Origin: Deferribacteraceae bacterium V6Fe1
GTDB taxonomy: Bacteria > Chrysiogenota > Deferribacteres > Deferribacterales > Deferrivibrionaceae
DNA: 64,000 nucleotides
NCBI GenBank assembly: GCA_022813675.1
Contig: CP063375.1
Location: 1,748,001 to 1,812,000, forward strand
Direction: 5' to 3'
Shown here: piece by piece, positions 27,284 through 33,103 of the stretch
Layout: each line of letters begins with the position of its first letter
How positions within the stretch are numbered: position 1 is the stretch's first letter
Notes under the pieces: generated by a model
What the model was told of the DNA's origin: nothing
The model's database searches: none
Seen by the model: the letters and a program-made list of their open reading frames with translations, nothing else
Position numbers and translations under genes: made by a program

Positions 27284-28258
27284 ATGGATATTAATTATGT
27301 TTATCAGATGATTATGCCTGAAATGGAAAGTGTTGAGAAGGAGCTTCTTAGAAACCTTGATTCTGACGTTGAGATGGTTAATGAGGTGGCTTCTTATGTG
27401 TTTGAGAGTGGTGGCAAAAGGTTGAGACCTGTGTTTATGGTACTGGCCTCAAAACTTTGCGGTTATTCCGGAGATAGGGCAACAATATTAAGCGGCGTAG
27501 TTGAATATATTCACACTGCGACTTTACTTCATGATGATGTTATTGACGGGGCAAAATACAGACGCGGTAGAAAAAGTGCAAATAATGTATTTGGCAATGA
27601 TATTACTGTCCTTTGTGGGGACTTTTTATATTCAAGAGCTTTTATCAACTTAGTAAAGGATGGGGATGCAAGAGTGCAGATGATATTGGCAAATGCTGCA
27701 AAGACCATGAGTGAAGGGGAGGTATTTCAGCTTGTCAAAACTGCCGAGTTTAGCCTTAAAATTGAAGATTATTTGAAGATAATTTTTAGTAAGACAGCAG
27801 TCCTGTTTTCTGCCTGTTGTGAAATTGGTGGGATTTTAGGTGGCTTGGAAGATGAAAAAGTAAAAAATCTTGCTGAGTTTGGCAAAGTGGTTGGGCTTGC
27901 CTTTCAGATGAGTGACGATATTCTTGATTATCTTGGAGACCCCGAAAAGACAGGTAAAAAACCCGGGACAGACTTAAATGAAGGTAAAATGACGCTCCCC
28001 TTGATTTTGTTAAGAGATATGGCTGACAAGAATGAAAAACAGAGATTAAGGGATATTATAGTCTCTGAAAATGCCAGCGAGGAAGATTTAACATATATTA
28101 TCTCCTTGATGAAAAAATATAATATTAAAGCCGCTTCGGAAAGGTATGTGGATGATTATGTAAATAGATCAAAAGAGCTTTTAAATATATTTCCTAAAAA
28201 TGAATACAGGGATGCCCTTGAGTTTTTGGCCGAATATGTCATAAAAAGAGACAGGTAA
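27284..28258 (+). CDS. ispB: All-trans polyprenyl diphosphate synthase
   Basis: 324 residues. Elongates farnesyl diphosphate with isopentenyl diphosphate to make the menaquinone side chain. Both aspartate-rich metal sites are present: LLHDDVIDGAKYRRG (first) and QMSDDILDYLGD (second), plus GGKRLRP near residue 45. Chain length cannot be fixed from sequence; residues before the first Asp motif (YIHTATL) lack bulky blockers at -5, consistent with a long chain. Ribosome site GAGGTGTGAG. First gene of a dense plus-strand operon; the next ATG follows the stop directly. Confidence 0.94.
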   Translation: MDINYVYQMIMPEMESVEKELLRNLDSDVEMVNEVASYVFESGGKRLRPVFMVLASKLCGYSGDRATILSGVVEYIHTATLLHDDVIDGAKYRRGRKSANNVFGNDITVLCGDFLYSRAFINLVKDGDARVQMILANAAKTMSEGEVFQLVKTAEFSLKIEDYLKIIFSKTAVLFSACCEIGGILGGLEDEKVKNLAEFGKVVGLAFQMSDDILDYLGDPEKTGKKPGTDLNEGKMTLPLILLRDMADKNEKQRLRDIIVSENASEEDLTYIISLMKKYNIKAASERYVDDYVNRSKELLNIFPKNEYRDALEFLAEYVIKRDR

Positions 28259-29245
28259 ATGTTAAAACTGGCAAGTTATTTTGAATCACTTGCTGAAGAT
28301 GGGGCTGTAAGATGCAATTTATGCCCTCATAGGTGTAAGGTTAAAAATGGTGGGGCAGGGTTATGCCTGATTAGGAAAAATATAGATGGCAAGCTTTATC
28401 AGGCATCCTATGGTGAAGTTACATCTGTCAATCTTGACCCTATTGAGAAAAAACCGCTATATCATTTTTATCCAAGTTCAAATATTTTATCAATTGGGAC
28501 AAATGGTTGTAATCTAAAATGTGCGTTTTGCCAAAATTATACAATAAGCACTCAGGAAACTTTTAGGGAAGAGGTATCTGTTTTGGATTTGGTTAATTTG
28601 GCAAAAAAGCATAACAGTATAGGGATTGCATATACTTACAATGAGCCTACAATATGGTTTGAATTTGTATTAGATTGTGCAAAAGTATTTAGAGAGAATG
28701 GTCTTAAAAATGTAATTGTTAGTAACGGAAATATTAATCGTGAGCCACTATTGGAGCTTATTAAGGTAATTGATACTGCCAATATTGACTTGAAAGGCTT
28801 CACCGATGGTTTTTACAATTGGGTGAAAGGTGACCTGAATACGGTTAAGGAGACGATAAGGCTGCTTTTTGAAAATAATATACATACTGAAGTAACTTTT
28901 TTGTTAATTCCAAACAGGAACGACAAAATAGACGACTTTACACGCATGTGCGAATATTTAATGAGTATTAGTAAAGATATACCACTGCACATTTCAAGAT
29001 ATTTCCCAACATATAAATGCAATGAGCCTACTACAGATATTGCAAAAATGTTAGAGTTTTATAAAGAGGCTAAAAAGTACTTAAATTATGTTTATTTGGG
29101 CAATATCAGTGCAGGGGACAATGCTAACAGTTATTGCCCTGATTGTGGCAATCTTCTTGTGAAAAGGGATGGTTATTATTCCGAAATTGTGAATAAAAAG
29201 GATGTTTGTGAAAAATGTTCAAGAAAATTATACTTTCGACTTTAG
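28259..29245 (+). CDS. amrS: AmrS-type radical SAM enzyme (AmmeMemoRadiSam system)
   Basis: 328 residues. Radical SAM cluster motif C84-x3-C88-x2-C91 (GCNLKCAFCQN). Four N-terminal cysteines (C19, C22, C26, C36; CNLCPHRC...GLC) and a C-terminal zinc-ribbon-like pair of CX2C motifs suggest extra metal sites. DPIEKKPLYHFYP is characteristic of the AmrS group, which is related to pyruvate-formate-lyase activases. Partner genes AMMECR1 and Memo are not in the window. Substrate is unknown for this group. The stop overlaps the apbE coding start by 31 bp. Confidence 0.9.
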   Translation: MLKLASYFESLAEDGAVRCNLCPHRCKVKNGGAGLCLIRKNIDGKLYQASYGEVTSVNLDPIEKKPLYHFYPSSNILSIGTNGCNLKCAFCQNYTISTQETFREEVSVLDLVNLAKKHNSIGIAYTYNEPTIWFEFVLDCAKVFRENGLKNVIVSNGNINREPLLELIKVIDTANIDLKGFTDGFYNWVKGDLNTVKETIRLLFENNIHTEVTFLLIPNRNDKIDDFTRMCEYLMSISKDIPLHISRYFPTYKCNEPTTDIAKMLEFYKEAKKYLNYVYLGNISAGDNANSYCPDCGNLLVKRDGYYSEIVNKKDVCEKCSRKLYFRL

Positions 29246-30150
29246 TATTGTTGTTTGTTATCTCCTGCAATAGAACATTTGTGTCAAGGACAGGGTTTTG
29301 GATGGGGACTATCGTAGAGGTGACTTTTGATGCCGATAAAAGCAAAGAGGCAGATGAAGCGTTAAAATATCTTAAGATTTTGGAAAAAAAAGTTAACAAA
29401 TTTACGAATGAGTTAAATGAAAAAGGTATCTCGGATGTTGACAGTGATATGAAATATCTTATGAGCCGCAATGAATTCTTCAAAAAGCTTTCCAGCGGAA
29501 GGTTTGATATCTCCGTTGGCACAATCAGTTATCTCTACGGCTTCCCAGAAGGGCCTTTTAAATTGCCGGATGAAAATACTTTAAATGAGTCGCTTGAAAA
29601 AATACATAAAAACAGATTTTTTATTAAAGACGGCAAGGTGTTAAAAAGCGAAGATGTTAAAATAGATATGGGCGCTTATGCCAAAGGCTACATTGTAGAT
29701 AAGGCAAGTGAGTATCTAAAACAAAAAGGGGTAGAAAATTTTATTTTTAATGCCGGTGGAGACCTGTTTGCTTCGGGCAGCAAAAATGGTAAAAAATGGA
29801 AAATAGCAATTAAGCACCCCGAAGGTGAAAGCAAGTTTTTAAGTGTAATAGGTCTTAGCAATAAAGCTGTAGCTACAAGCGGAAATTATGAACGTTATTT
29901 TGAAAAGGATGGCAAGCGGTATATCCATATATTTGATGCCATAACCGGTAAAAATGCAAATAATTATCAGAGTATAAGTGTAATCGCGGAAAAAGTGGAA
30001 AAAGCCGATGGACTTGCTACCGTATTTTTCCTTCTTCCGGTAGATGAAATAAAAGATATTTGTGCCAAAGAAAACACTCCCGTAATGATTTATACTCTTG
30101 ACAATAATCTATTAAAGTATTGCGGTTGGGAAGATTTTGAAATTAATTAA
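29215..30150 (+). CDS. apbE: ApbE FAD:protein FMN transferase, lipoprotein form
   Basis: 311 residues with a lipoprotein signal (FVISC, C18), so it acts outside the inner membrane. It attaches FMN to threonines of extracytoplasmic flavoproteins such as RnfG/NqrC or FMN-bind proteins. Motifs: GFWMGTIVEV, the active-site DMGAYAKGYIVD, FNAGGDLFASG and AVATSGNYERYF, and the metal aspartate region in AITGKNA and KADGLATVFF. The N-terminal ~100 residues are shorter than in many ApbE. It lies in an operon with NusG-II and Gx-transporter genes. No obvious flavinylation target (FMN-bind) gene is in the window. Confidence 0.94.
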   Translation: MFKKIILSTLVLLFVISCNRTFVSRTGFWMGTIVEVTFDADKSKEADEALKYLKILEKKVNKFTNELNEKGISDVDSDMKYLMSRNEFFKKLSSGRFDISVGTISYLYGFPEGPFKLPDENTLNESLEKIHKNRFFIKDGKVLKSEDVKIDMGAYAKGYIVDKASEYLKQKGVENFIFNAGGDLFASGSKNGKKWKIAIKHPEGESKFLSVIGLSNKAVATSGNYERYFEKDGKRYIHIFDAITGKNANNYQSISVIAEKVEKADGLATVFFLLPVDEIKDICAKENTPVMIYTLDNNLLKYCGWEDFEIN

Positions 30151-30496
30151 GCCGTTTGACATTGTCATAATCGCAACTTTGCTATTATTTTCTTTGTCTA
30201 TGATAATTTTTAATATTAAGAGTAGCGGGGATAAACACTTTTTTCTTTATATAGACGATAAAAAGATTGAGATAAAAGGAGAAAATAAAATTATTGATTT
30301 AAGGGAATACGGCAAAAATGTCATTCTTGAGATAACAGATGGAAAAGCAAGATTTGTTGAATCTGACTGTAAAGATAAGATTTGTATAAAGACCGGTTAT
30401 ATTGAGATGTGCGGAGAGGTTGCAGTATGCTTGCCAAATAAGGTAGCAATTGAAATAAAATGTGTCGAGAATGAGTTTGATGCGATTTCACAATAA
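30137..30496 (+). CDS. Membrane-anchored NusG domain II-containing protein
   Basis: 119 residues from a TTG start inside the end of apbE (GGGAAG site upstream). One membrane helix at about 8-26, then an extracytoplasmic NusG-II domain with the conserved cysteines C78, C83, C92 and C98 (ESDCKDKICIKTG and VAVCLPNKVAIEI). The family commonly sits beside ApbE and Gx-transporter genes. By memory it corresponds to EetA of the Listeria flavin-based extracellular electron transfer locus; that identification needs checking. Function unknown; the cysteines suggest a redox or metal role. Confidence 0.88.
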   Translation: MKLIKPFDIVIIATLLLFSLSMIIFNIKSSGDKHFFLYIDDKKIEIKGENKIIDLREYGKNVILEITDGKARFVESDCKDKICIKTGYIEMCGEVAVCLPNKVAIEIKCVENEFDAISQ

Positions 30497-31007
30497 AAGT
30501 GCACTTGTTGGAATTTTAACATCGATGTGTATTGTTTTGGGGTTTATGGAGATGTTTATACCGAGCCCCATCCCTTTTTTAAGACTTGGGCTTGCAAATG
30601 TGCCTATTATGATAGGAATATTTATTTTTGATGAAAAAAAATATGCATTGTACATTGCTTTATTAAAATCGTTGTTAATTCCAATTATCTCTGGTAACTT
30701 TTTTATAAAGATTATAGTTAGTATGCCATCTACAATTATTTCTACTGTAATAATGTTAATTATATATAAAATATTTTCAAAAAAGATTACTGCTGTTTCA
30801 ATAGGTGCAGCAGGGGGATATTTTCATATTATTGTTCAACTTATTGTAATTAAAGTTTTTTTTATAAAATATCTTGATATTTATAAAATTATCCCTTATT
30901 TTTCACTACTTGGTCTTATTACAGGAATTTTAACGGGTATAATTGTTGAATATACAATAAAAAATATTATGAAGGTGAAAGATGTTACAGAAAATTATTC
31001 TGGCTAG
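30480..31007 (+). CDS. Gx transporter / heptaprenyl-diphosphate-synthase-component-I-like membrane protein
   Basis: About 175 residues and five to six membrane helices. PIPFLRLGLANVPIMIGI is the characteristic motif of the family usually labelled heptaprenyl diphosphate synthase component I or Gx transporter; the fold is that of an ECF-type substrate-binding (S) component, not an enzyme. It overlaps the NusG-II gene by 17 bp and the maf gene by 26 bp. The start could be GTG 30462, ATG 30471 or ATG 30480; the last is given because the conserved part begins soon after. Possible substrates are a quinone precursor or a flavin; not determined. Confidence 0.85.
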   Translation: MRFHNKSALVGILTSMCIVLGFMEMFIPSPIPFLRLGLANVPIMIGIFIFDEKKYALYIALLKSLLIPIISGNFFIKIIVSMPSTIISTVIMLIIYKIFSKKITAVSIGAAGGYFHIIVQLIVIKVFFIKYLDIYKIIPYFSLLGLITGILTGIIVEYTIKNIMKVKDVTENYSG

Positions 31008-31578
31008 CGGCAGCCCGAGGAGGCGGGAGATTTTTACAAAGTTAGGTATAAATTTCCAATATGTTACCTCTGAAGTCGAAGAAAAGTTCGACGAAAATGC
31101 TAATGTTGAAGAGCAGGTTATGAAAATTGCCGCTATGAAGGCGTATAGGGTTGCAAGTATCTATGATGAGGCTTTTATTGTGGGGGCTGATACTATTGTA
31201 TATCTTGATAACCAGATAATTGGCAAGCCTAAAGATGCGTATGATGCTCAACGTATCTTAAAATTTTTAAGTGGCAAAATGCATGAAGTTATTACCGGTG
31301 TGGCTGTAGTAAATAAAAAACATAAAATATGTGAAATGTTTTATCAAAAGACGGAAGTATATTTTAAGAAGCTTAATGATGAAATAATCAATTGGTATAT
31401 AGATTCTGAAGAGCCGCTTGATAAGGCTGGCGCTTACGGCATTCAAGGGAAAGGGAGTTTACTTGTGGAAAAGATACATGGCGATTATGATAATGTGGTG
31501 GGGCTTCCTGCCGGTAAACTACTTGAAACATTTGGAAAACTTGGAATAAGACCTTACGGAGGATTTCATGAATTATAA
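30982..31578 (+). CDS. maf: Maf-family nucleotide pyrophosphatase
   Basis: 198 residues. Hydrolyses non-canonical or modified nucleoside triphosphates (dTTP/UTP or m7GTP, depending on subgroup). Motifs: ILASGSPRRREI, the catalytic VGADTIVYLDNQIIGKP, SGKMHEVITGV, and DKAGAYGIQGKG. GAYGIQG points to the YhdE/dTTP-UTP subgroup. AAGGTGA ribosome site. Overlaps its neighbours on both sides (26 and 11 bp). Confidence 0.94.
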   Translation: MLQKIILASGSPRRREIFTKLGINFQYVTSEVEEKFDENANVEEQVMKIAAMKAYRVASIYDEAFIVGADTIVYLDNQIIGKPKDAYDAQRILKFLSGKMHEVITGVAVVNKKHKICEMFYQKTEVYFKKLNDEIINWYIDSEEPLDKAGAYGIQGKGSLLVEKIHGDYDNVVGLPAGKLLETFGKLGIRPYGGFHEL

Positions 31579-33103
31579 AAGTATTGCGGATATGTTTTTG
31601 ACTGTTGCGAAGAAAAAAGGGTCAAAAAAGTATATATTCTTTGAGGATAAGGTTTATAAATTTTCTCAGACAAGGGATTTGGTGATAAAATATGCTAACG
31701 CTCTAAAAGAGCAGGGGCTTAAAAAAGGGGATAGGGTAGGTGTATTGCTCGAAAATTCCCCGGAATTTATATTTTCAATATTTGCTATATTTTTAAACGG
31801 TGCCGTAGCCGTGCCTATAAACACATTTTTAAAAGATGAAGAGATAAGTTATATATTGAATAATTGTGAAGCGAAATTCTTGATTACTTCAGACAACTTT
31901 TGGGAGGAAGTAAAAGATTTAAATGTGCCTTCACTTGTCAATAAATTTTCTTTTCAGGATGGCAATCTGACTAATCTTAGTAAAGTTGCCGAAGGCCAGA
32001 CTCTTGATTTTGAAGTGCCTGAGATGGATTTAGAAGATATCGCTATTTTAATCTATACTTCAGGGACAACAGGTAATCCCAAAGGGGCAATGCTTACTCA
32101 TATGAATCTATTGTCAAATGTAGATGCTTGCAACAAAGCTTTTAAAATTAAAAATAATGACAGATTTTTATTATTTTTACCTATGTTTCACTCATATGCA
32201 TTTACTACTTGCATTATGCTTCCTACATTTGTCGGGTGTTCGATAATTATACTTAAATCTGTTATGGAGCTTAAAAAGAAGAGCTTTAAAAATGTACTTT
32301 TATTTAAGCGTCCTACTTTTTTCCTTGGTGTACCGCAGGTTTTTACTGCTTTAAGTAAAGCGAAACTTCCCGGATGGTTTATAAAATTTTTATACCCTGT
32401 CAGAATACACGTAAGTGGCGGAGCACCTCTGCCTGAGGAAATATTAAAAGAATTTGAGTCAAAATTCAAAAGGCCTATAATTGAAGGGTATGGTTTATCA
32501 GAAGCATCCCCTGTAGTGGCGGTTAATCGTCTCGAAGAGCAAAGACCTTATTCCGTCGGGCCTGCCTTACCGGGAGTAGAAGTAAAAGTGGTAGATGATA
32601 ACGAAGAGGAATTGCCGGTAGGACAAGTCGGTGAATTGATTGTAAAAGGGCCAAATATTATGAAAGGATATTGGGGTCTACCTGAAGTTACTAAAATGAC
32701 TGTTAAAAACGGGTGGCTTTTTACAGGGGATATGGCAAGACTTGATGAGGATGGGTTTATTTATATTGTAGATAGAAAAAAAGATTTGATAATTGTCAAA
32801 GGGATAAATCTTTATCCGAGAGAGATAGAGGAATTGTTATATACTGTTGAGGGGGTTGAAGCTGCAGCTGTTATCGGTATTCCGGATAAGGCAAGCGGGG
32901 AGGTCCCTGTTGCTTATCTTTTGCCAAAAGAGGGAGCAAAACTTGACCCTGCTGCAATTAAAGAGTTTTTAAAGGAGCATCTGGCTAATTTTAAAGTGCC
33001 AAGACATATATATGTTGTCAATGAATTACCTCTGACTGCTACAGGCAAGGTGTTAAAGCGGAAGCTTAAAGAGCAGGTGATGGCAAAAGGTGTAAATGCC
33101 TAA
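31568..33103 (+). CDS. Long-chain acyl-CoA ligase (AMP-forming)
   Basis: 511 residues of the ANL adenylate-forming superfamily. ATP-binding YTSGTTGNPKGAM, the acyl-adenylate motif region IIEGYGLSEASP, FTGDMARLDEDGF and the hinge DRKKDLIIVKGINLYPREIE are complete; the C-terminal catalytic lysine is in TATGKVLKR. Activates a fatty acid to its CoA thioester in the cytoplasm. It ends the operon that begins with the polyprenyl synthase; a GGAGG site precedes its ATG inside the end of maf. Confidence 0.92.
   Translation: MNYKSIADMFLTVAKKKGSKKYIFFEDKVYKFSQTRDLVIKYANALKEQGLKKGDRVGVLLENSPEFIFSIFAIFLNGAVAVPINTFLKDEEISYILNNCEAKFLITSDNFWEEVKDLNVPSLVNKFSFQDGNLTNLSKVAEGQTLDFEVPEMDLEDIAILIYTSGTTGNPKGAMLTHMNLLSNVDACNKAFKIKNNDRFLLFLPMFHSYAFTTCIMLPTFVGCSIIILKSVMELKKKSFKNVLLFKRPTFFLGVPQVFTALSKAKLPGWFIKFLYPVRIHVSGGAPLPEEILKEFESKFKRPIIEGYGLSEASPVVAVNRLEEQRPYSVGPALPGVEVKVVDDNEEELPVGQVGELIVKGPNIMKGYWGLPEVTKMTVKNGWLFTGDMARLDEDGFIYIVDRKKDLIIVKGINLYPREIEELLYTVEGVEAAAVIGIPDKASGEVPVAYLLPKEGAKLDPAAIKEFLKEHLANFKVPRHIYVVNELPLTATGKVLKRKLKEQVMAKGVNA

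Follow-up and report, generated by a model that had tools for sequence, protein, structure and literature searches.

The window analysed here is a stretch of 64,000 nucleotides (C1:1748001-1812000) of the Deferribacteraceae bacterium V6Fe1 genome, which consists of a single contig of 2,358,333 bases. Between positions 27284 and 31007 of the window, ispB, amrS, apbE, a NusG_II gene and a PF07456 gene are tightly packed in overlapping or abutting frames, all on the + strand, and the overlapping run goes on past 31007 into maf and then an acyl-CoA synthetase gene:

27284..28258, + strand: IspB-type polyprenyl diphosphate synthase (polyprenyl_synt PF00348, 2.3e-72)
28259..29245, + strand: AmrS, AmmeMemoRadiSam radical SAM enzyme (AmmeMemoSam_rS TIGR04337, 4.4e-89, 298.8 bits, cut-off 220)
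29215..30150, + strand: ApbE, FAD:protein FMN transferase lipoprotein (PF02424, 5.6e-64, 216.7 bits)
30137..30496, + strand: EetA-like NusG_II protein, TTG start (PF07009, 3e-22, 79.2 bits, cut-off 29.6)
30462..31007, + strand: EetB-like PF07456 membrane protein, alternative starts 30471 and 30480 (Hpre_diP_synt_I/PF07456, 9.2e-32, 110.5 bits, cut-off 30)
30982..31578, + strand: Maf nucleotide pyrophosphatase (PF02545, 3e-60), overlapping, conserved neighbour
31568..33103, + strand: AMP-binding (acyl-CoA synthetase) gene (PF00501, 1.5e-94), overlapping, conserved neighbour

The family assignments are profile matches, each exceeding its curated cut-off, and together with the open reading frames they confirm the five genes that the initial annotation had named at 27284-31007. 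IspB reached no NCBIfam chain-length equivalog, though it is clearly a PF00348 protein, one of two in the genome (the second copy lies at C1:2185093). The conserved cluster contains no Ndh2-type NADH dehydrogenase. Maf and the acyl-CoA synthetase are conserved neighbours that stand outside the mechanism considered below.

The PF07456 match (110.5 bits against a cut-off of 30) places the last of the five products in the EetB family, as had been supposed, PF07456 being the definition of that family in PMC9973259. EetB of Listeria binds FAD and is required for FAD export (PMC9973259). The structural model of the present protein (pLDDT 84) has Thermotoga maritima RibU as its top PDB match (TM 0.70-0.74), and PDB ranks 1-13 are all occupied by ECF S-components or ECF transporter chains; the Foldseek E-values are weak (0.011 for the best match), with a probability of 1.00. 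Independently, a profile built from 25 relatives matches Staphylococcus aureus RibU by sequence (E 0.0027). The protein shares with RibU (5kbw, 3p5n) the six-helix S-component fold and a weak sequence-profile similarity, whereas RibU is an importer and the identity between the two is 16-19%. We regard the PF07456 protein as a predicted flavin-exporting ECF S-component. EetB had no match among PLSDB plasmids.

The assignment of the 30137 product to the NusG_II family likewise stands (PF07009, 79.2 bits, cut-off 29.6), and Listeria EetA itself is presumably a NusG_II protein. The model of the 30137 product (pLDDT 81.7) shows one N-terminal membrane helix followed by a beta domain and matches the DUF1312 structures 4esn, 3ld7 and 4obi, the first two being the best. 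The four cysteines initially ascribed to it are in fact five (C78, C83, C92, C98 and C109), all invariant in an alignment of 27 sequences; the set of five is a constant feature of the EetA-like proteins of Deferribacterota. In the aligned stretch of 4esn, from Ruminococcus gnavus, cysteines occupy the positions of C78, C83 and C98 and are absent at those of C92 and C109. Judging from these alignments, two of the five may be a lineage addition. A clean eetA deletion in Listeria is without an EET phenotype (PMC9973259). Three EetB-like genes from families f6 and f7, at L058, L059 and L065 (genomes G030, G033 and G038), have no recognisable EetA alongside, which is consistent with EetA being dispensable.

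ApbE is the sole copy in the genome and carries a conserved lipobox-like Cys18 after a hydrophobic leader; in a scan of genome contigs, its close relatives were confined to Deferribacterota, other loci having distant ApbE of ~21-32% identity. A genome-wide search for its potential targets recovered only two FMN_bind proteins, RnfG (C1:1588 kb) and NqrC (C1:1611 kb), encoded within a complete rnfCDGEAB operon (C1:1585.8-1590.7 kb) and a complete nqrABCDEF operon (C1:1608.2-1613.9 kb), respectively. Their flavinylation motifs are intact (SGATIS and SGATMT), and RnfD and NqrB likewise have such motifs (STATPL and SKATPL). The earlier statement that no flavinylated target was visible is thereby corrected: the targets exist, beyond the window, about 163-191 kb from apbE. 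What the same annotation had named as speaking against its electron-export reading, an adjacent Rnf/Nqr operon that explains ApbE, does exist in the genome, though not next to the cluster. The proposed partnership of ApbE, as FMN transferase, with the two membrane proteins is upheld.

Because ApbE is single, FMN_bind domains are limited to RnfG and NqrC, both operons are complete and the motifs are intact, we consider it highly probable that the cluster works as a module for the maturation of Rnf and Nqr, exporting flavin and transferring FMN. The S-component-like EetB would carry cytosolic FAD across the inner membrane to its outer face. ApbE, a lipoprotein anchored at that face, would split the FAD and pass FMN on to two subunits of each complex, RnfG and RnfD of Rnf, NqrC and NqrB of Nqr, all encoded elsewhere in the genome. 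EetA, which goes with EetB in most relatives, would have an accessory role. The other four products of the run, IspB, AmrS, Maf and the acyl-CoA synthetase, would take no part in flavinylation. This reading builds on gene identity, fold resemblance, the single ApbE, the Rnf/Nqr targets with their motifs and co-occurrence across the phylum, all observed here, and on the literature, according to which EetB of Listeria binds and exports FAD and ApbE transfers FMN; from these we infer the direction and substrate of transport, as well as Rnf and Nqr as the substrates of ApbE.

The initial annotation had proposed a different role, namely that of the flavin-based electron-export locus of Listeria (ndh2, dmkAB, eetAB, fmnAB, pplA) in a compact form adapted to a Gram-negative cell, which would serve extracellular iron reduction. 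The two loci do have components in common, a polyprenyl synthase (dmkB-like IspB), an ApbE-type transferase and EetA-like and EetB-like proteins being encoded together in both, and this thermophilic bacterium reduces Fe(III) in insoluble form (PMC11896075). However, the genome encodes no PplA-like protein with two FMN_bind domains, RnfG and NqrC being the only FMN_bind proteins, and the cluster contains neither an FmnA-type ECF-T nor an NADH dehydrogenase. Furthermore, Calditerrivibrio has the cluster just as well, and its species C. nitroreducens reportedly does not reduce Fe(III) (PMC13186404). The paper describing the present organism draws attention to 17 putative multiheme cytochromes and to pilins (PMC11896075). 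Even in Listeria, EetB exports FAD, not electrons (PMC9973259). With no PplA-like target and with FMN_bind confined to RnfG and NqrC, we reject a compact locus for extracellular electron transfer as very unlikely.

The maturation of Rnf and Nqr was further examined against the phylogenetic distribution of the components in 51 genomes of the phylum Deferribacterota, co-occurrence being counted in the 39 that are at least 90% complete. EetB, ApbE and FMN_bind proteins are all found in 34 of these genomes and all lacking in four. Pairwise, EetB and ApbE are both present in 34 genomes and both absent in four, EetB occurring alone in one; EetB and FMN_bind proteins are both present in 35 and both absent in four, with no discordant genome. 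Every near-complete genome without EetB belongs to one of two outgroup families (f9 and f10), so these counts reflect few independent losses. The same distribution bears on an alternative in which the main activity of ApbE is FAD hydrolysis in the periplasm, of the Treponema Ftp type, for the recycling of flavin, with EetB importing the product. ApbE relatives with such activity exist (PMC4767422) and the PF07456 protein does resemble the importer RibU, but the FMN_bind targets are intact and co-occur with ApbE, and Listeria EetB is no substitute for RibU in uptake (PMC9973259); this alternative accordingly retains very little probability.

Gene order is also conserved. The arrangement is not due to chance, being found again in six families of relatives although the identity of their EetB proteins is only 31-92%: apbE-eetAB lies between ispB-amrS and maf in families f1-f5 (f2 being Calditerrivibrio and f5 Denitrovibrio, Seleniivibrio and allies) and behind ispB-amrS in f8. 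EetA was recognised in 20 of the 21 relative loci laid out, and in two of them a false open reading frame overlapping maf hid that gene. At all five ispB loci examined in f6 and f7 (the latter comprising Mucispirillum and allies), the order is ispB-apbE-maf without amrS or eetAB, and EetB is encoded elsewhere in the genome. That the PF07456 protein pairs with IspB as a subunit of a prenyl diphosphate synthase, as suggested by its Pfam name, 'heptaprenyl diphosphate synthase component I', and by the position of ispB upstream in the run at every f1-f5 and f8 locus examined, is extremely improbable given its ECF S-component fold, the separation of eetB from ispB in f6/f7, where ispB still adjoins apbE, and the experimental work on EetB in Listeria (PMC9973259).

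AmrS had been interpreted as a functional addition to the cluster. Across the 39 near-complete genomes, AmrS and Memo agree in 38 (both in 26, neither in 12; G030 has AmrS only), counting two f10 AmrS matches that fall below the curated cut-off, whereas the presence of AmrS does not match that of EetB in 14. Since AmrS tracks Memo in this way and not EetB, AmrS is probably, as far as gene distribution tells, a Memo partner located in the operon as a passenger. Dissociation goes both ways: AmrS and Memo occur without ApbE in f10, and ApbE and EetB occur without AmrS or Memo in two f7 genera (g13 and g15). This double dissociation rules out AmrS as an added redox enzyme of the module, and the interpretation as a functional addition falls with it. 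Memo is encoded at G000:C1:1570300-1571067 of the present genome, unlinked to amrS (window positions 28259-29245); in a relative (G001), the two are ~0.6 kb apart. At G038:C34:1897-3218, AmrS precedes a partial ApbE that covers profile positions 132-194 of 266 and looks like a relic of the amrS-apbE order; a second, intact ApbE is present in that genome.

What would power the predicted export is a separate question. In Listeria, EetB works with FmnA and the shared EcfA/EcfA' (PMC9973259). The present cluster contains no ECF-T or ECF-A gene, and the genome encodes two CbiQ-family proteins, at C1:624.8 kb and 1115.5 kb, both outside the window; one is part of a CbiM-CbiQ-CbiO operon and the other stands alone beside truA. 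The lone ECF-T gene overlaps truA (L079:7434-8168, corresponding to G000:C1:1115439-1116167), with no ECF-A gene nearby. The top match to the ECF-A model is CbiO of the CbiM-CbiQ-CbiO operon, at 224 bits and thus below the model cut-off of 315; the second-best, an ABC ATPase at C1:782664, was discarded as part of an amino-acid ABC importer, and apart from CbiO the genome has no close ECF ATPase.

None of the four Calditerrivibrio genomes, which keep EetB, has the lone ECF-T, although a divergent one could have been missed. In f5 it is kept in the lnt-truA slot at ~24% identity, and the AQxxR motif of the coupling helix is missing there (five copies and the G023 copy were read) as well as in the f8 copy (G050). 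BioY is absent, among near-complete genomes, exactly in f2, f5, f8 and the outgroups. EetB is thus kept where the lone ECF-T is absent (Calditerrivibrio) or lacks the coupling motif, BioY being gone as well (f5 and f8). The intact lone ECF-T tracks BioY more closely than EetB, for which reason the truA-linked protein was rejected as an obligatory EetB partner across the order, and EetB in f2, f5 and f8 would have another motor or none. Gene inventories suggest that in these lineages EetB export may proceed via the cobalt-type ECF module (CbiQ/CbiO) or with no ATPase. A more specific variant, which we consider rather unlikely, dispenses with a dedicated ECF module: in some Deferribacterota, flavin would leave the cell passively through the EetB-like S-component, following the FAD gradient, with this protein acting either alone or together with a T-component that has lost ATPase coupling.

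FAD export to ApbE on behalf of Rnf and EET systems has been proposed previously, with eetB found beside apbE in 2,169 genomes and beside eetA in 3,328, most often with Rnf and EET systems (PMC9973259). As in those EetB-ApbE systems (Listeria EetB/FmnB, clostridial Rnf clusters), PF07456, NusG_II and ApbE proteins are encoded here in one run, the targets belong to the FMN_bind family and there is an association with Rnf; in contrast to them, the targets lie ~163-191 kb away, ECF-T and ECF-A are lacking from the cluster, and the run includes ispB, amrS, maf and an acyl-CoA synthetase gene. The system is therefore known and its occurrence new, the phylum not being among those named in the accessible part of PMC9973259. 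Collectively, these results point to a probable flavin-export step for Rnf/Nqr maturation in a phylum whose Gram-negative members reduce metals and nitrate. They also warn against reading eetAB, in the annotation of metal reducers, as a sign of extracellular electron transfer, and they single out the f2, f5 and f8 lineages as a place to examine export by an ECF-type S-component without a motor of its own.
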